Positions 43,944 through 51,467 of a stretch of DNA of 64,000 nt are shown here, piece by piece. A program made the translations under genes and the position numbers. The notes under the pieces were generated by a model. The model saw nothing but the letters and a program-made list of their open reading frames with translations. It searched no databases and was not told the origin of the DNA. Every line of letters begins with the position of its first letter. Position 1 is the first letter of the stretch. The stretch lies in NCBI GenBank assembly GCA_026002855.1, contig BPGD01000001.1, positions 3,728,001 to 3,792,000 on the forward strand, written 5' to 3'. Origin of the DNA: Bryobacteraceae bacterium. Lineage in GTDB: Bacteria; Acidobacteriota; Terriglobia; Bryobacterales; Bryobacteraceae.

Positions 43944-46900
43944 TCAGAAGAAGAAGCGGATGCCGAACTGCGCCTGGAAGGGGTTGCCGACCTGCGACGT
44001 GGTCGCCTGGTTGTAGTCGCCGGCGGCGTTGCGCAGGAGCATGAAGCGAGAATCAACGGGCGCGGCGGCGCCGGTGGCCGGGTTGATGCCCGGACCGTAG
44101 ATGTTGGCCTGGCCTGCGTAGACGACGTTGTCGAGGTTGAACAGGTTGAAGAACTCGGCCGAGAGCTGGAGGCGGTAGCGCTCGCGGAAACTGAAGTTCT
44201 TCAGGATGCGCAGGTCGTTATTGGTAACGACGCCACGGTTGCGGAAGGAGTTGCGGAGGAACGGAACGCCGACGGCCTGATACGGGCGGTCCGTATTGGT
44301 GGCGTTGCCATCGGTGTCACTGCCGACCAGAGGGTTCAGCGGCAGGCCGCTGCGGGCGCGGAGAATGCCGGAGAGTTCGATGCCCCAAGGCAGCGTCCAG
44401 ACGGCGTAGGACGAAAGCAGGTGGCGGGCGTCGAGGTCCGAGTAGTTGTATTCGCTGCGCAGATCATACGGGTTCATGGCGTTCATGCCGGTGGCGTTGC
44501 GTTCGTTGTCGTCGTCGGAGTAATTCGTCGACAGAGTGTAGAAGACGCCGCCGGTGAACTTGCGGCCGCGATATTGGGTCTGGAGCACAAGGGCGCGGTA
44601 TAGCGCCTTGGCGTTGCTTTCGCGCGTGTTGTACTGGCCCTGCTGGGGCACGGGCCGGAGGGCGCGGTTGAAGACAGGACGGCCGTCGGTGGCGCGAATG
44701 GTGGGCACGGGGAGGTTCCAGTCCCGGTTGCGTTGCAGGTGGACGGCCTTGACGTGCTGGTACTGCGCGCCGGCGATCCAGTTGCCGGTGAGCTGGTGTT
44801 CGAAGCCAATGCCCCACTGATAGGAGCGCGGGTTGTAGAACTCGGGGGCCATCATCGTGAGCGCCGCGCCGAGCAGGGGATCCGGCGCCGTGCCGCCGGC
44901 GGCGAGCGCGGCTGCCTGCTGCACCTTTTCGACGGAAATGACCGGCAGCGCGCCGAGCTGGGCGGAGTTCAGGTCAATGCCGACCTGCTGGAAGAGCTTG
45001 TAGACGCTCTGCGTGCTGTTTGCGGCGAAAGGCCCGAGCTGAATGCTGACGTCGCCGGGCGGTGTGCGGAAGTTGTTCGTCGGACCGGAGAACAGCAGCA
45101 ACGGCGTGGCGGCGTAGAAGATGCCGCCGTGGCCGCGGACCACGGTGCGCTTGTTGCTGAAGGGGGTCCAGGCGAAGCCGCCGCGGGGCATGACCTGGTT
45201 CAGGTTGTCCTTGAGGCGGGTGACGTCGAGACGGCCGAGCGGATAATCGATGTTGACGCGGTTGACAAGCGTCGTGTTATTGGCGGTGATGTTCGGGTTC
45301 CACTGGCCCTCCCAGCGGAGGCCGAAGTCCAGCGTCAGGCTGTTGGAAACGCGCCAGGAATCCTGGGCGAACAGGGCCAGCTGTTTGGCGTTGAAATCGG
45401 CGATGAGGTTGCCGATCTGGCGGCGGTAGATGACACCGGGATGGTCGAATCGATTGGGGAAGGCGCCGCCGGTTCCGAGGATGTCGAGGATGCCGGCGAC
45501 GTCGGCGCTGTTCTGAAACGAGAAGGCCCCGAACTGGTTGAAGCCGAACAACTGGGCAGTGGTGAGGTAGCTGAAGTCCATGCCGAACTTGAGGCTGTGG
45601 CGGCCGGCGAGGACGGTGAGCGAGTCCGTGATCTGGGTGCGGTAGTCGTCCTGGGTGGTCGGCAGGAAGCTGCGGGCGCCGTAGCTGCCGATGACGCCGG
45701 CCAAGACGGACGGCAGGGCCGAATTCGACAGGCGCGGGCGGATTTCGTAAGACTGACTGAATTTGACGTCGTTGACGACCCGCGGGGAAAACAGGTGCGT
45801 GTACTGAACGGTGCCGAAGTGGGTGCGGTCGATCTCCGTTCCTTCGTTGGAAAGCGCAAGGTTGGTAAAGGGGTTCAGCGCGCCGCCGACGGTAACCGAG
45901 TTCGGCTCCTTCGAGCGGGAGTGGTTGTAGCGCAGCGTCAGGCGATGTCCGCCCGAGAAAGCGTAGTCCATCTTGCCGGTGACGGCGGTGGCGCGGTTCA
46001 GCCGTTCGAATTTCTGTTCAAGGCTCCTGAAGAAGCCATAAGCCTCCTGCGTGGCAGGAGTGGGCGTGATGCCCTGCAAGGCGGTGAAGACGACCTGCGC
46101 CGGGGTATCGGCCCGCTGGTATTCGGCGGCGGCGAAGAAGAACATGCGGTCGCGGAGTACCGGCCCGCCGATGTTGCCACCGAGCTGTTGCAGGGACTCC
46201 GAAGGCTGGCGCTTGAAGATCGGATTGTCAGCGCTGAGGCTGCGGTCGCGGTTCTGGTAGAAGCCGCCGCCGTGGAATTCGTTGGTTCCGCTGCGGGTGA
46301 TCACGTTCAGGACGCCGCCGGTGGAGCGGCCGTATTCGGCGGCGTAGCCGGAGCTGACGGTCTGAAATTCCTGGATGGCGCCCTGCGGAATGGTGAAGTT
46401 GAAGTTGGACCGCTCGCCGCCGCGGATGCCGCCGAAGAAGGGCTGGTTATAGTCGGCGCCGTCGACCATGATGTTGCCATTGATGCCGCGCTGGCCGGCG
46501 AAGGAAAGTTGCCCGCGGGCTGGTTCCACCTGAACGGTGGGGGTGAGGGCGGCGAAGTCCTGAAAGCGGCGGCCGTTGATGGGGAGGTTCACGATGGCCG
46601 TCTCGGTGATGCTGGCGGAGGGCGCCGGGAGGGCGACGTTGATCATCGTGTCGGCGACCTCGATGGTCTGCGTCGTGGCCTGGAGCTGGAGCGTGACATC
46701 GAGGCTGACGGCGGCACCGACGCTGAGATCAATGCCGGCGATGGTGGTGGGAGCAAAGCCGGGACTTTCGGCGACGAGCTCATAGGTGCCAGGGTCGAGC
46801 TGGACGGCGCGGAACTGGCCCGTGTCGTTGGACTTCAGCTCGCGCTGGAAGCCGGTGCGGACGTTGCGGATCTTGATGGTTGCGCCCGGTACAACGGCAC

Positions 46901-47012
46901 CTTTGGGGTCGAGAATCGTGCCGGACAATTGCGCCTTGTTGGCATCCGCCTGGCCCCAGACGATGAGGGCGCAGGCGAGAATCAGAAGTCCCACGCGAGG
47001 GATTCGAGACAT
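43944..47012 (-). CDS. TonB-dependent receptor with N-terminal carboxypeptidase-regulatory domain
   Basis: A 1022-residue outer-membrane protein. After a signal peptide (VGLLILACALIVWGQ) comes a CarboxypepD_reg-like domain (LSGTILDPKGAVVPGATI, ... FRAVQLDPGTYELVAESPGF), then a plug domain (INGRRFQDFAALTP, NIMVDGADYNQPFFGG, GRSTGGVLNVITRSGTNEFHG) and a beta barrel ending in a terminal aromatic strand (FGIRFFF). This Oar-like type is much expanded in Acidobacteria and probably imports or binds glycans or peptides. The substrate cannot be told. The ATG at 47012 has AGGAA upstream. It is monocistronic, with its own terminator. Confidence 0.92.
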   Translation of the reverse strand: MSRIPRVGLLILACALIVWGQADANKAQLSGTILDPKGAVVPGATIKIRNVRTGFQRELKSNDTGQFRAVQLDPGTYELVAESPGFAPTTIAGIDLSVGAAVSLDVTLQLQATTQTIEVADTMINVALPAPSASITETAIVNLPINGRRFQDFAALTPTVQVEPARGQLSFAGQRGINGNIMVDGADYNQPFFGGIRGGERSNFNFTIPQGAIQEFQTVSSGYAAEYGRSTGGVLNVITRSGTNEFHGGGFYQNRDRSLSADNPIFKRQPSESLQQLGGNIGGPVLRDRMFFFAAAEYQRADTPAQVVFTALQGITPTPATQEAYGFFRSLEQKFERLNRATAVTGKMDYAFSGGHRLTLRYNHSRSKEPNSVTVGGALNPFTNLALSNEGTEIDRTHFGTVQYTHLFSPRVVNDVKFSQSYEIRPRLSNSALPSVLAGVIGSYGARSFLPTTQDDYRTQITDSLTVLAGRHSLKFGMDFSYLTTAQLFGFNQFGAFSFQNSADVAGILDILGTGGAFPNRFDHPGVIYRRQIGNLIADFNAKQLALFAQDSWRVSNSLTLDFGLRWEGQWNPNITANNTTLVNRVNIDYPLGRLDVTRLKDNLNQVMPRGGFAWTPFSNKRTVVRGHGGIFYAATPLLLFSGPTNNFRTPPGDVSIQLGPFAANSTQSVYKLFQQVGIDLNSAQLGALPVISVEKVQQAAALAAGGTAPDPLLGAALTMMAPEFYNPRSYQWGIGFEHQLTGNWIAGAQYQHVKAVHLQRNRDWNLPVPTIRATDGRPVFNRALRPVPQQGQYNTRESNAKALYRALVLQTQYRGRKFTGGVFYTLSTNYSDDDNERNATGMNAMNPYDLRSEYNYSDLDARHLLSSYAVWTLPWGIELSGILRARSGLPLNPLVGSDTDGNATNTDRPYQAVGVPFLRNSFRNRGVVTNNDLRILKNFSFRERYRLQLSAEFFNLFNLDNVVYAGQANIYGPGINPATGAAAPVDSRFMLLRNAAGDYNQATTSQVGNPFQAQFGIRFFF

Positions 47013-47287
47013 AAACTGGTTGTTCCTCACTGAGAAGTGGATTGAAGCGGTGAAGCACCCGATACGGCTTTAGGGTAGCGCAGGATTATGAAGGATGGAT
47101 AACAAATCTGCGGTTGCCGATTGATCAGCTCTGGCTCAGTGGACTAGCGCGCGCGGCGGCCGGTTCATAGCCCAGCGATGCGCGATGAAACTACGAAGAG
47201 AGCCGGGTGTGCCGCAGACGTTCGGGCCACCGAGTAGGCGGCTCGTGGGGAAAGGGGCGCGAATCGCGGATAGAAGGGGAATCAGGG

Positions 47288-47637
47288 TGGTGGAGGCGGC
47301 GGGAGTCGAACCCGCGTCCGAAATGGTTCTCCGAAGCGAGCCTACGTGCGTATCCGGCCCATGATCTCGACGCCGCGCGCCGGACCGGCGCGGCCTCGCG
47401 ACGTCCAGCCTGGTTGCTGTCGGGCCTCGGCCTCAGGCGGCGGCCTGCGCCCCAGCCTGCTGTGGATGACGCTTCCCGGCAGCCCGCAGGCCGGCTACCG
47501 TTCAGCGGCTGCCTTTAATTAGGCAGCGTAGGCAAACTGCTGATTGGCAGTTTTGGTTTTCCGATCGTTTTACGGGAGCTCGGAACCCGGCACGCCTCAC
47601 TTCGTCGATCCCATCCCGTCGAAGCCGTTACGCCCCC
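47288..47637 (-). ncRNA. ssrA: Transfer-messenger RNA (tmRNA)
   Basis: The 5' end GGGGGCGTAACGGCTTCGAC and the 3' end GGTTCGA...CGCCTCCACCA pair as a seven-base acceptor stem, and the CCA is encoded. The tag frame GCC AAT CAG CAG TTT GCC TAC GCT GCC TAA lies at 47519-47548 and gives ANQQFAYAA, a normal proteolysis tag ending in AYAA. At about 350 bases it is a one-piece tmRNA. It rescues stalled ribosomes together with SmpB, which is not in this window. Pseudoknot sequences fill the region between tag and 3' end. Confidence 0.96.
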
Positions 47638-47729
47638 ACACGGAGAGGGATGGGTGCGGCCCGACAGTGCAGGCCACCCCATACCTACAGGATACCGCGG
47701 GCGGGGAAAAGGTTTCATTCGGGCGCGGG

Positions 47730-49067
47730 TCAGGTGCCGGGATAGCCGACGTGGAGTTTTTCGGGAGCGAAGCCGCCTCCGCCACGGCGCGCGTCGCGCA
47801 TGAGGCGAAGGGCCTGGTGCATGTCATCGGCGGAGACATCGCGGCCCTGCTCATAGGCAAGCTGGCCGGCCAGCACATAGGCCTCGCGGAGCTGGGCGAA
47901 GCTGAAGCCGGCCGAGAGGCGGAGCATGTCGTCGAGGTCCTTTTCGGGGCAGCCGTTGCGGAGCGACTTCCGGATGAAGCGGGCGCGGAGCTCGGGGCCC
48001 GGGTTGCGGAACTCGACCACGCGATCGAAACGGCCAGGGCGGCGGAGGATGGCGTCGTCGAGCAGGCCGGCGTCGTTGGCCGTGGCGACGACGATGACGC
48101 CCTCGGCGGTGGACAGGCCGTCGAGAGAGTTCATCAGGTGGGAGAGAGTGATCTGGTGCCGCTTCTCCTTGCTGCCGTCGGAAGGGAAATGGCGGTCGAG
48201 ATCTTCCATGACGATCATGGCAGGAGCGTGATCGGCGGCCCACTGGAACAGGTGAGTGAGCATGCTGTCATCGACATCCGAGTCGCCCCATTGCAGGGAG
48301 CAGATGGAGAGCTCCGGGCGCGCGGCGAGGACACGGACGACGCTGGTCTTGCCGTTGCCCGGGGGACCGTGGAAAAGGTAGCCGCGGCGGTACGGGATGC
48401 GGTTTTCGCGGAACCACTGGCGGCGCTGGAAGAAAGTCTCGAAGTCGGAGCGGACGAGGCGGACGACGTGGTCTTCGAGGACCAGGTCGTCCCAGCCGAG
48501 CGCGGTGGAAATTTCCTGGTCCGGCCCGTTGAGGATAAAGACGTTCTTGCGGTTTTTTTCGCGCCGAAGGTGTTTGGCGAGCAGCGCCGTCAGGGCGGGC
48601 AGATCCTCGCGCCGTGCGATGACGAAGTGGCCGGTGGTGGTGCCGCCGCGCTCGTCCGGATCCACCCAGCGGAGGCGGACGAAGACGACGGGGCGGTCGA
48701 GGCCGCGAAACCACAGTGCGGCGGGCTGGCCGATCCATTCCGCGCGCCAGACGACGCGGGAGCGGCCCGTGGGATAGCGCCGTTCGGCGGCGGAGAGCTG
48801 GAGCAGGCAGGGCTCGCCGTCGCGGAGCTGGAAGCGCTCGACGCGGAAGCCAGTGCCCCAGTGGCTGCGGTTGCCGCTGGCCAGGCCGCTGGGGCCGAAG
48901 ATTTCACGAATTACCAGATGATGGAGCGGCGCCTGGGACAGGTCCGCGATGACGGCCTCGCCGTAAGGGACGCCGAGAACCTGTTCGATCCACGCGCGGT
49001 GCGGCTCGAGCGTCGCGCGGACATAGTCGTTGGGCAGTTCCGTGCGGATGGTCTGGATGGTCGGCAC
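47730..49067 (-). CDS. Bcs1-like AAA ATPase
   Basis: A 445-residue protein. Residues 1-190 are a family-specific N-terminal part with no transmembrane segment that I can see. The AAA core has Walker A GPPGNGKT (234-241), Walker B MIVMEDLD (about 283-290), the sensor segment VIVVATANDAGLLDDAI and the arginine-finger region RRPGRFDRVV. It is most similar in style to Bcs1/FtsH-class AAA proteins. Bacterial Bcs1-like proteins are little characterised; a chaperone, membrane-remodelling or defence role is possible. It is divergent from the HNH endonuclease gene and directly upstream of ssrA on the same strand. Confidence 0.82.
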   Translation of the reverse strand: MPTIQTIRTELPNDYVRATLEPHRAWIEQVLGVPYGEAVIADLSQAPLHHLVIREIFGPSGLASGNRSHWGTGFRVERFQLRDGEPCLLQLSAAERRYPTGRSRVVWRAEWIGQPAALWFRGLDRPVVFVRLRWVDPDERGGTTTGHFVIARREDLPALTALLAKHLRREKNRKNVFILNGPDQEISTALGWDDLVLEDHVVRLVRSDFETFFQRRQWFRENRIPYRRGYLFHGPPGNGKTSVVRVLAARPELSICSLQWGDSDVDDSMLTHLFQWAADHAPAMIVMEDLDRHFPSDGSKEKRHQITLSHLMNSLDGLSTAEGVIVVATANDAGLLDDAILRRPGRFDRVVEFRNPGPELRARFIRKSLRNGCPEKDLDDMLRLSAGFSFAQLREAYVLAGQLAYEQGRDVSADDMHQALRLMRDARRGGGGFAPEKLHVGYPGT

Positions 49068-49315
49068 GCCTGGCAGGATTCCCTGCTCTCACACTAGCAC
49101 GGACTCGCGCCCGAAAAAAGAGACCGCGAAGAAAAATCACTCCGGCGGCGGCCACCCGTGTCCGCCGGCAATCATGGCAGGAAATCGGGTTCTGGACAGG
49201 GAAATTCGGCCAACTTATTGACGACGCATGGAACCCTGGACGCCGGAACCGGCCTGCCACGAGGCCAGCTCGCGCCTGCCCGAATCGGGCAAAAGGCAGC
49301 CTGTGCGCGCCGGTC

Positions 49316-49344
49316 TTGACCCCACAGACGGGCGCGGGTAGAAT
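49316..49344 (+). promoter_or_regulatory. Sigma70-type promoter of the HNH endonuclease gene
   Basis: TTGACC (49316-49321) and TAGAAT (49339-49344) are separated by 17 bases, 15 bases before the ATG at 49360. The short leader implies a transcript with little or no 5' UTR. Confidence 0.65.
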
Positions 49345-49359
49345 GACCAGAACTCTGCC

Positions 49360-50271
49360 ATGGAATCCGCCGTCGCCGGAAAAATCCGGCAAAGCGTCGA
49401 GACCCTGGCCGTGTGGAAGCGCGGCGATGAGCGCGCTCCGCACAAGCCGCTGCTAATTCTCTGGAACCTCGGCAGGGTGCAGCGCGGCGAAGCGCGTTTG
49501 GTGCTGTTCCGCGATGCGGAGCCCGCGCTGCGCCACCTGCTGGAAGAATTCGGTCCTCCGCGGAAATCCATTCACCCGGAGTATCCTTTCTGGCACCTGC
49601 AATCCGACGGGCTGTGGGAGGTGATGGAGGAAAAGGCCGCGCGGGCGCCGGGGAAAAGTCCAACGAAAAAGGATCTTATGGATCCGGGAATTCAGGGCGG
49701 ATTTCCGGCCGAGATCGATGCCGAGCTGCGCAACCATCCGGCGCTCCTGTCCGAGATCGCCTTCCGGCTTCTGTCCGGACACTTTCCGGAGTCCCTGCAC
49801 GGCGACATTCTGGAAGCAGTTGGCCTGAGGGTGGCGCCATGGTCTGCGGCGAGGCAGGATGCGGCGCCATTCCGGCAGCAGGTGCTCGACGCCTATGGCC
49901 ACGCCTGTGCGCTGTGCGGTTACAGCGTGCGTCTGGGACGGGGCGATCTGGCGCTGGGCGCGGCGCACCTCCGCTGGCGAATGTCGGGCGGGGCCGATGC
50001 TGTGGATAACGGCCTTGCCGTCTGCGCCATCCACCACAAGGCGCTGGACCGCGGCGCGGTGTCTCTGGATGAAGAGTTCCGCATTCTGGTGTCAGACCAG
50101 GTAGAAGGGGGGCGGGGCCTGGAGGAATGGTTCCTCGGCCTGGCGGGCCGCCGGGCTCACATCCCGGAGCGGCCCGATTGGAGGCCTGCGGGGGCGCACC
50201 TGGCCTGGCACCGGAAGAATGTTTTCCGCGGCAGCGCGGATCCGCCCATGCATCAATCCGCCAGCGCCTGA
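49360..50271 (+). CDS. HNH endonuclease, phosphorothioate-DNA-dependent restriction type
   Basis: A 303-residue protein. The N-terminal half has RAPHKPLLILWNLGR (25-39) and YPFWHLQSDGLWEV (75-88), a pattern I recall from the sulfur-binding domain of ScoMcrA-type enzymes that recognise phosphorothioated DNA. The C-terminal half is an HNH nuclease: C183 and C186, GAAHLRWRMSGG with H203, DNGLAVCAIHHKALDRG with N217, H225/H226 and D230. All nuclease residues appear intact. It has its own promoter and a convergent 19-base overlap with the serine hydrolase gene. No dnd genes lie nearby, so it would act as a stand-alone type IV restriction enzyme against modified foreign DNA. Confidence 0.82.
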   Translation: MESAVAGKIRQSVETLAVWKRGDERAPHKPLLILWNLGRVQRGEARLVLFRDAEPALRHLLEEFGPPRKSIHPEYPFWHLQSDGLWEVMEEKAARAPGKSPTKKDLMDPGIQGGFPAEIDAELRNHPALLSEIAFRLLSGHFPESLHGDILEAVGLRVAPWSAARQDAAPFRQQVLDAYGHACALCGYSVRLGRGDLALGAAHLRWRMSGGADAVDNGLAVCAIHHKALDRGAVSLDEEFRILVSDQVEGGRGLEEWFLGLAGRRAHIPERPDWRPAGAHLAWHRKNVFRGSADPPMHQSASA

Positions 50272-51467
50272 TAGACGAGCGTCTCGAACAGGTTCAGCGT
50301 GGCCGCGTCAAAGGGCATCCACTGCATGAACACAAGCAGGGCGAGCTTCTCCCTGCGGTCGATGCGGAAGAAGGTGGAGGCAGCGCCGTTCCAGCCGAAC
50401 AAACCTTCGGAAGCGGGGCGGCCGGAGCGGGCGACGTCAATTCGCACGGCACCGCCGAGTCCGAACCCGTCGGCATCATCGCCGCCGATGGTCGGGCGCG
50501 GGAGCCCGGCGAGGTGGTTCATCGTCATCAGGTCGACCGTTTTCCGCCCGAGCAGGCGGACGCCGTCGAGCTGACCGCCGTTCAGAAGCATCTGGGCGAA
50601 GCGCGCGTAGTCGCCGATGGTCGAATACAGCCCCATGCCGCCGTACGGCACGCCGCCGGTCTGGAGCCCTGGCTGCGTGACGAGCTTGCCCTCGCGGCGC
50701 GAGTAGATTTTTGCCAGCCGCGGCCGCTTGGCCTCGGGCAGGCGGAAATGCGTGTCCGTCATTTTCAGCGGCCCGGTGATGCGCTTTTCCACGAATTGAT
50801 CGAAGGGCTCGCCCGCGACGACCTCGACAAGGTAGCCGAGCACGTCAATGGAGACCGAGTACTCATAACGCTCTCCGGGCTGGAAGGCCAGCGGAAGCCG
50901 TGAGAGCCGTTCAATGAACTCCTTGAGGCTGCGGGCGCCGAGCGGGTCCGCCTTGCGGTAGAGCGCGGAGACATTGTCGTTGCCCCACCCGTAGGTGAAG
51001 CCGCTCGTGTGCGTCAGCAGATGCCTGATGGTGATCGGCCGGGCCAGATCCTCGAGCTCGGGCCGTTCGACGGTGCCGCCCTTGTAGACCTTGAGTCCCT
51101 TGAACTCGGGGATGTATTTTTCGACGCGGTCGTCGAGCGAAAGCCTGCCCTCCTCGACGAGCATCATCACGGCGACGCTGGTGATGGTCTTGGTCATCGA
51201 GTAGATGTGAACGATGGTGTCGCGCTCCATCGGCAGGCGGTTTTCGACGTCGCGGAGTCCGTAGGCGCGCCAGTCGACGATGCGGCCGTTGCGCACGATC
51301 ATCGTGATGGCGCCGGGGCGCTCGCCGGATGAAGTGAGTGATTCGAAATGGCGGTGGAGACGCCCGAGACGCTCGCTCGAAAAGCCCTCCTTTTCAGGAG
51401 TGGAAACGGCAAGAGGCTGGGCAAGGCCGGCACAGGCGGCCAGCGTGACAAGAAGCAATGCGCGCAT
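50253..51467 (-). CDS. Secreted serine hydrolase, class C beta-lactamase fold
   Basis: A 404-residue protein with a signal peptide (RALLLVTLAACAGLAQ) and the catalytic S90-M-T-K93 of the beta-lactamase/DD-peptidase fold. A tyrosine motif YEYSVS and a C-terminal Gly-rich segment (FGWNGAASTFF) take the place of the HxG/KTG strand. These enzymes are usually esterases or D-aminopeptidases rather than resistance genes. It ends inside the 3' end of the HNH gene and lies eight bases downstream of the xylanase stop, so it may be co-transcribed with the xylanase. Confidence 0.9.
   Translation of the reverse strand: MRALLLVTLAACAGLAQPLAVSTPEKEGFSSERLGRLHRHFESLTSSGERPGAITMIVRNGRIVDWRAYGLRDVENRLPMERDTIVHIYSMTKTITSVAVMMLVEEGRLSLDDRVEKYIPEFKGLKVYKGGTVERPELEDLARPITIRHLLTHTSGFTYGWGNDNVSALYRKADPLGARSLKEFIERLSRLPLAFQPGERYEYSVSIDVLGYLVEVVAGEPFDQFVEKRITGPLKMTDTHFRLPEAKRPRLAKIYSRREGKLVTQPGLQTGGVPYGGMGLYSTIGDYARFAQMLLNGGQLDGVRLLGRKTVDLMTMNHLAGLPRPTIGGDDADGFGLGGAVRIDVARSGRPASEGLFGWNGAASTFFRIDRREKLALLVFMQWMPFDAATLNLFETLVYQALAD

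Follow-up and report, generated by a model that had tools for sequence, protein, structure and literature searches.

A gene for a Bcs1/YjoB-like AAA+ ATPase and a gene for a predicted phosphorothioate (PT)-dependent HNH endonuclease, which stand divergently beside the tmRNA gene (ssrA) of a Bryobacteraceae bacterium, form a link that recurs in related genomes and is real, but not obligate. The novelty lies in this recurring link and in a larger gene cluster of which the window, by which we mean the whole 64-kb stretch of DNA analysed, seems to hold a reduced copy; a literature search at the level of titles and abstracts returned no description of either the pair or the six-gene cluster. The nuclease itself is an added acidobacterial member of an already known restriction class. 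We consider it likely that the nuclease is a type IV PT-dependent HNH enzyme and the ATPase a separately working remodeller, the two being linked by descent from one multi-gene locus.

The genome that holds the window (G000) is a single 4.44-Mb contig. A check of the open reading frames bore out the layout given in the original prediction, with the ATPase gene (GTG start) and the nuclease gene (ATG start) diverging across 292 bp near ssrA (Table 1), and both proteins are conserved over their full length in relatives. Besides the nuclease gene, the neighbours of the ATPase gene are those for the tmRNA, a TonB-type receptor, a beta-lactamase-family protein and a GH10 glycosidase. The promoter-like site ahead of the nuclease gene is a weak signal, with one such site in 3.4 kb compared with 0.4 expected from shuffles.

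Table 1. Features of the ATPase–nuclease locus and positions compared in relatives (window coordinates unless a locus is named)
Feature	Position	Strand	Remarks
Bcs1/YjoB-like AAA+ ATPase	47730..49067	-	445 aa; PF00004, Foldseek, alignment, dN/dS
AAA N-terminal domain	48498-49067	-	residues 1 to ~190
AAA Walker A GPPGNGKT	48345-48368	-	key residues invariant in 13 aligned sequences
AAA Walker B VMEDLDR	48192-48212	-	key residues invariant in 13 aligned sequences
SBD-HNH endonuclease (predicted)	49360..50271	+	303 aa; NF045808, PDB matches, alignments, fold
Sulfur-binding domain (SBD) of HNH protein	49375-49839	+	residues 6-160; pocket H28, K29, Y75, P76
HNH domain	49855-50253	+	residues 166-298; C183/C186, H203, N217, C222/H225/H226
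Divergent intergenic region	49068..49359	.	292 bp
Promoter-like TTGACC-17-TAGAAT	49316-49344	+	ends 15 bases ahead of HNH start codon
tmRNA (ssrA)	47288..47637	-	tag ANQQFAYAA; Rfam 157.5 bits; neighbour of AAA gene
TonB-type outer-membrane receptor gene	43944-47030		conserved flank
Beta-lactamase-family protein gene	50253-51467		conserved flank
Variable segment between the TonB-type receptor and beta-lactamase-family genes	47031..50252	.	not at that place in G002, G003, G004
67-aa repeat protein gene	L020 9005-9208; L021 12606-12809; L023 11141-11344		
tmRNA places compared	window 47288-47637; L306, L307, L308, L312		

The family model, the pocket residues and the fold together support the nuclease as a PT-dependent restriction-type enzyme, a resemblance already noted in the original prediction. 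The protein scored 317.3 bits against the NCBIfam model NF045808 (‘phosphorothioated DNA-binding restriction endonuclease’; cut-off 180, 7.7e-95, residues 9-290 of 303) and matched Pfam HNH_2 (PF13391) at 1.8e-5, and sequence and profile searches of the PDB returned the SBDs of ScoMcrA and SprMcrA, followed by the HNH enzyme TagI. It shares with the SBD-HNH enzymes (EcoWI, SprMcrA; NF045808) the order of SBD then HNH, the length of about 300 aa, and, for the NF045808 class, the HK and YP pocket motifs and the CxxC/CxxH site, EcoWI itself lying outside the alignments. Identity reaches 37-45% to the five best plasmid-borne homologs and 36-39% to homologs on viral contigs. The HNH residues and zinc ligands listed in Table 1 do not vary in alignments of 6 and of 11 sequences. 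In the SBD, residues H28, K29, Y75 and P76 align with H116, R117, Y164 and P165, which PMC6224610 names as the pocket residues of ScoMcrA; the same source gives lysine in place of R117 in most homologs. At the fifth pocket position, A168 of ScoMcrA is replaced by H79. The structural model (pLDDT 74.2) adopts the SBD fold, matching the ScoMcrA SBD with a Z of 20.0 (rmsd 2.5, 153 aligned residues) and the HNH domain of TagI with a Z of 10.7 (117 aligned).

The similarity to ScoMcrA (SBD-SRA-HNH) extends to the SBD and its pocket, but the SRA domain of that enzyme has no Pfam match in the 303-aa window protein, and the base-reading loops differ. The ScoMcrA loop S187-R191 corresponds to A96-S100 here, with K99/S100 in place of R190/R191; the target may therefore differ from GpsGCC, and the window enzyme possibly reads another sequence; with the change at A168, its affinity may differ as well. 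The original prediction had also remarked on the lack of dnd genes nearby, and this now holds genome-wide for DndC (TIGR03183): none of 16 genomes, namely the 14 with a full-length HNH protein together with G001 and G003, had a match at E 0.001, in a search that covered the Dnd-type writer only and ran without a positive control, 14 control genomes likewise having none over the cut-off. By its sequence and model, the nuclease would most likely be an ordinary type IV enzyme acting against PT-modified foreign DNA. In such a process, the N-terminal domain would take the PT sulfur of foreign DNA into its pocket and the C-terminal HNH domain would cut near the PT site; the host’s own DNA would be spared, since no PT writer of the Dnd type was found in it.

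Across 257 genomes of the order, the profile of the ATPase N-terminus found 13 carriers, a count that includes G023 (a 67-residue match missed by tblastn with the window protein). The HNH profile found 17; 14 of these matches are full length, and the three partial ones (G175, G177, G235) are left out of the 14. Both genes occur in three genomes, those of the window, G004 and G033, compared with a chance expectation of 0.71 (P 0.027, or 0.046 with partial HNH matches, uncorrected for kinship). Each of the three has them divergently arranged at one locus, within 3 kb of each other; the spacing of 292 bp in the window becomes 2.8 kb in G004 and G033, where two genes lie between them. The three linked nucleases form one clade (98/99, assuming a root outside it), with the window on a long branch, and the ATPases of the window, G001, G003, G004, G033 and G082 likewise form one clade (99/98, under the same assumption). 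Since the pair recurs and the sulfur-binding pocket is retained, the original prediction stands on the two points by which it had proposed to be judged. Each gene is also found alone: the ATPase carriers G001, G003 and G082 have no HNH match at E 1e-30 anywhere in their genomes, and 11 of the 14 genomes with a full-length HNH protein have no match to the ATPase.

So few independent cases leave some room for the reading that the two genes are unrelated and stand side by side by chance, the shared neighbourhood going back to a single old event that has no bearing on function. The clusters of G004 and G033 are homologous, hence there are perhaps only two lineages with the linked genes; moreover, the ATPase and nuclease genes have the base composition of their surroundings (GC 0.678 and 0.663, window 0.657), giving no signal of foreign origin. 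However, the link has been kept across divergence down to 46% identity in the ATPase and 55% in the nuclease, and it is found at differing genomic places within one genus. We therefore regard mere chance proximity as doubtful, though to be taken seriously, and continue to favour descent from one multi-gene locus.

The ATPase belongs to a known kind of AAA ring, its front end being specific to the family. The AAA module (PF00004, 5.1e-21) is intact, with conserved motifs in 13 aligned sequences that we take to be Walker A, Walker B, a sensor TAN and an RPGRFDR arginine finger. The N-terminus was described as unknown in the original prediction, and this stood for sequence comparison: Pfam yielded nothing up to E 1 for residues 1 to ~190, and a 15-row profile of that part found nothing credible in the PDB, only one chance-level match (E 1.5). 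It stood less well for structure, as Foldseek placed Bcs1 or YjoB chains at ranks 1-15 for the whole model, 11 of these 15 spanning 432-441 alignment columns, at rmsd 8-15 and with low model confidence at the N-terminus; the model is modest overall (pLDDT 71.5, pTM 0.53). Bcs1 and Bacillus YjoB also match by sequence, yet the scores of p97/VCP-type proteins equal or exceed theirs: VCP-like proteins came first in the sequence ranking, and in a second look with VIA p97- and proteasome-type AAA proteins filled the list at about equal Z. Because it is the AAA domain that fills the VIA list, the missing named fold for the N-terminus carries no meaning. A literature search for YjoB together with Bcs1 and AAA found nothing.

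On plasmids, none of the 279 records matching the ATPase had a place that covers 80% of the query, and among 20 matches listed no alignment begins before residue 158. IMG/VR contigs of 48-112 kb (L205 7722-9038, L206 7302-8744, L207 7539-8843) carry genes for more distant AAA proteins, which are 434-480 aa in length and have a long N-terminal part; two of these genes are near a DnaG/DnaB-type replication gene.

Seventeen ATPase loci could be compared, the 13 from the profile search of the order (G023 again included) and four more, one from another search and three from the phylum sample. A WYL regulator gene lies beside the ATPase gene in seven of them (G034, G173, G134, G023, bog_321, G431 and G579, all Pfam-confirmed), although these are not all independent, since the neighbourhoods of bog_321 and G431 are similar; a weak WYL-like match in G082 (27.8%, ~3 kb from the fusion gene described below) is left out of this count. 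The fusion gene accompanies the ATPase gene in four (G003, G004, G033, G082), the window is the one locus with the HNH gene only, and in the remaining five (G001, G105, G087, G086, G651) neither WYL, fusion nor HNH was detected beside the ATPase. A GmrSD-type gene follows the WYL gene in G034, and G134 has two genes with UvrD-helicase and PD-(D/E)XK nuclease domains.

These neighbourhoods bear on whether the ATPase belongs to defence at all, or is a Bcs1- or YjoB-like housekeeping chaperone beside a nuclease that would be the only defence gene. The Foldseek ranking fits a chaperone, as does the history of the gene in the sister species: dN/dS between G000 and G001 is 0.071 for the ATPase (0.104 and 0.109 for two neighbour genes), so that purifying selection acts although G001 lacks the HNH gene, and the ATPase must be useful without the nuclease. 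Membership in the defence family IetA is rejected by score, the AAA domain matching IetA models (5.8e-15 in PADLOC) at only 44.9 bits for NF042959, far under the cut-off of 510. Against a housekeeping role speak the patchy distribution of the gene, with 13 of 257 genomes in the order and four of 396 in the phylum sample (window genome included), the WYL regulator next door in 7/17 loci and the distant relatives beside a replication gene on viral contigs. A purely housekeeping ATPase thus seems unlikely. As a Bcs1/YjoB-type ring ATPase it would be a protein remodeller able to work without the nuclease, and its membership in defence appears plausible from its surroundings.

AAA partners license or strengthen cleavage in other defence pairs, and the ATPase and nuclease could by analogy be one working unit, the ring sensing an infection product or remodelling the nuclease and so licensing or strengthening its cleavage. 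The divergent arrangement within 3 kb wherever both occur, its excess over chance expectation and the single clade of linked nucleases all speak for such a unit. Against this, the ATPase persists without the nuclease in three genomes and most full-length nucleases occur without the ATPase, two other genes intervene in G004 and G033, and SBD-HNH enzymes were assayed successfully as single enzymes, as stated in the consulted part of PMC7461809, which mentions no AAA partner of the kind found near the window nuclease. Each gene often occurs without the other, and a working unit of the kind outlined, though possible, strikes us as unlikely.

Our favoured explanation, descent from one multi-gene locus, draws on the six-gene cluster of G004 and G033, which runs HNH, a 67-aa protein and a 617-645-aa fusion protein on one side and, divergently, the ATPase, a ~330-aa protein and a ~243-aa protein on the other. 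The fusion protein joins an inositol-monophosphatase/CysQ-like part (5.6e-26) to an ADP-ribosylglycohydrolase part (9.7e-59). In the ~243-aa protein there are two DTG motifs, and its aspartyl-protease matches are weak and under cut-off (0.0068, and 0.0014 for the longer G033 frame). No credible family was found for the ~330-aa protein, which was matched in three of 399 genomes of the class sample (G003, G004 and, in two pieces, G117); G033 carries it without appearing among these matches, presumably because it was not drawn into that sample. Its gene is doubled in tandem in G033 (L021 6737-8706). The 67-aa protein consists of two YVYDERGR-type repeats (Pfam RHS_repeat, 2.9e-6), and in three genomes its gene adjoins that of the fusion protein. 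The succession of AAA gene, ~330-aa gene and aspartic-protease-like gene in relatives resembles IetAS, an AAA–protease pairing in which IetA is adjoined by the subtilisin-like protease IetS; beside the window ATPase there is no protease gene, neither of the IetS type nor the aspartic-protease-like one of the cluster.

The cluster varies among relatives: G003 has it without the HNH gene, only the fusion and ATPase genes were found in G082, and in G144 and G146 the HNH and fusion genes are both present on different contigs. Among 11 full-length fusions in the order, four lie beside an ATPase of this family, and seven are without one in the stretches viewed. The fusion gene (L020 9257-11194) occurs in Acidobacteria and on proteobacterial plasmids (L183-L186); two of five plasmid regions viewed have it near WYL and TM0106 RecB-like nuclease genes, and the other three comprise one without annotation, one that has a restriction endonuclease gene and one in which just the glycohydrolase part is present, together with sugar-uptake genes. 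Two short peptide patterns found no fusion protein on viral contigs. The phosphatase–ADP-ribosylglycohydrolase fusion is a candidate defence gene in its own right.

Set against this cluster, the window pair looks like a reduced version. The ancestral locus would have held the ATPase, the ~330-aa and the aspartic-protease-like genes and, divergently, the fusion, 67-aa repeat and SBD-HNH genes, of which the window would keep two; the proposal is that the ATPase and nuclease genes are linked because both descend from this one locus. This reading is a matter of parsimony on a small tree in which the window branch is long, and the order of events may have been the reverse, with the pair first and the other cluster genes added later. 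The far-reaching version, in which the pair is a remnant of a new Bryobacteraceae defence system with a Bcs1-like AAA ring and aspartic-protease-like partner, a fusion handling an ADP-ribosyl or nucleotide signal and a modification-dependent nuclease that can be exchanged (SBD-HNH here, perhaps GmrSD elsewhere), is improbable in our estimation.

The original prediction had further proposed the tmRNA gene as an integration hot spot, which did not hold up at this locus. The tmRNA is the only match over the Rfam cut-off in the window genome; the ATPase gene stops a short way upstream of the tmRNA 5' end, both genes lying on that side, a search of the 64-kb window for the 29-base tmRNA 3' end, allowing up to 3 mismatches, gave a single site, and the direct repeats around the locus are short (16-28 nt) and imperfect. 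The variable unit is instead the whole segment, tmRNA included. The beta-lactamase-family gene is present in all five genomes of the genus, and in G002, G003 and G004 a gap of ~225 bp separates it from the TonB-type receptor gene, with no tmRNA, ATPase or HNH gene between, so that these three congeners are without the segment at that place. The sister species G001 has the tmRNA and ATPase genes, and an unrelated 355 bp at the HNH position; the tmRNA adjoins the ATPase gene only in G000 and G001. Each genome of the genus has one tmRNA over the cut-off. That of G002-G004 lies elsewhere, and the tmRNA has therefore moved within the genus, in either direction; one flank of the other place is also found in G000/G001, to ~0.2 kb from the tmRNA (in the G002 view), and the other flank was not found in the G000/G001 stretches viewed. 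Duplication of the tmRNA 3' part does occur in the genus, at a place other than the ATPase–nuclease locus: in G004 (L308 7446-9187) part of the 3' half is present a second time, as a 177-bp stretch ~1.2 kb away from the intact tmRNA, and a frame for a 263-aa CmcI-type methyltransferase lies between the two.

The larger cluster may be an undescribed defence locus. The PT-dependent SBD-HNH class has been proposed for mapping sulfur-modified DNA, according to the part of PMC7461809 drawn on here, and the window nuclease would be an acidobacterial addition to it, whose base-reading loop is unlike that of ScoMcrA and whose target sequence is possibly a different one. A functional linkage, if there is one, would mean that these bacteria combine PT-dependent restriction with an AAA ATPase and the chemistry of ADP-ribose, a combination of which a search of titles and abstracts found no description.
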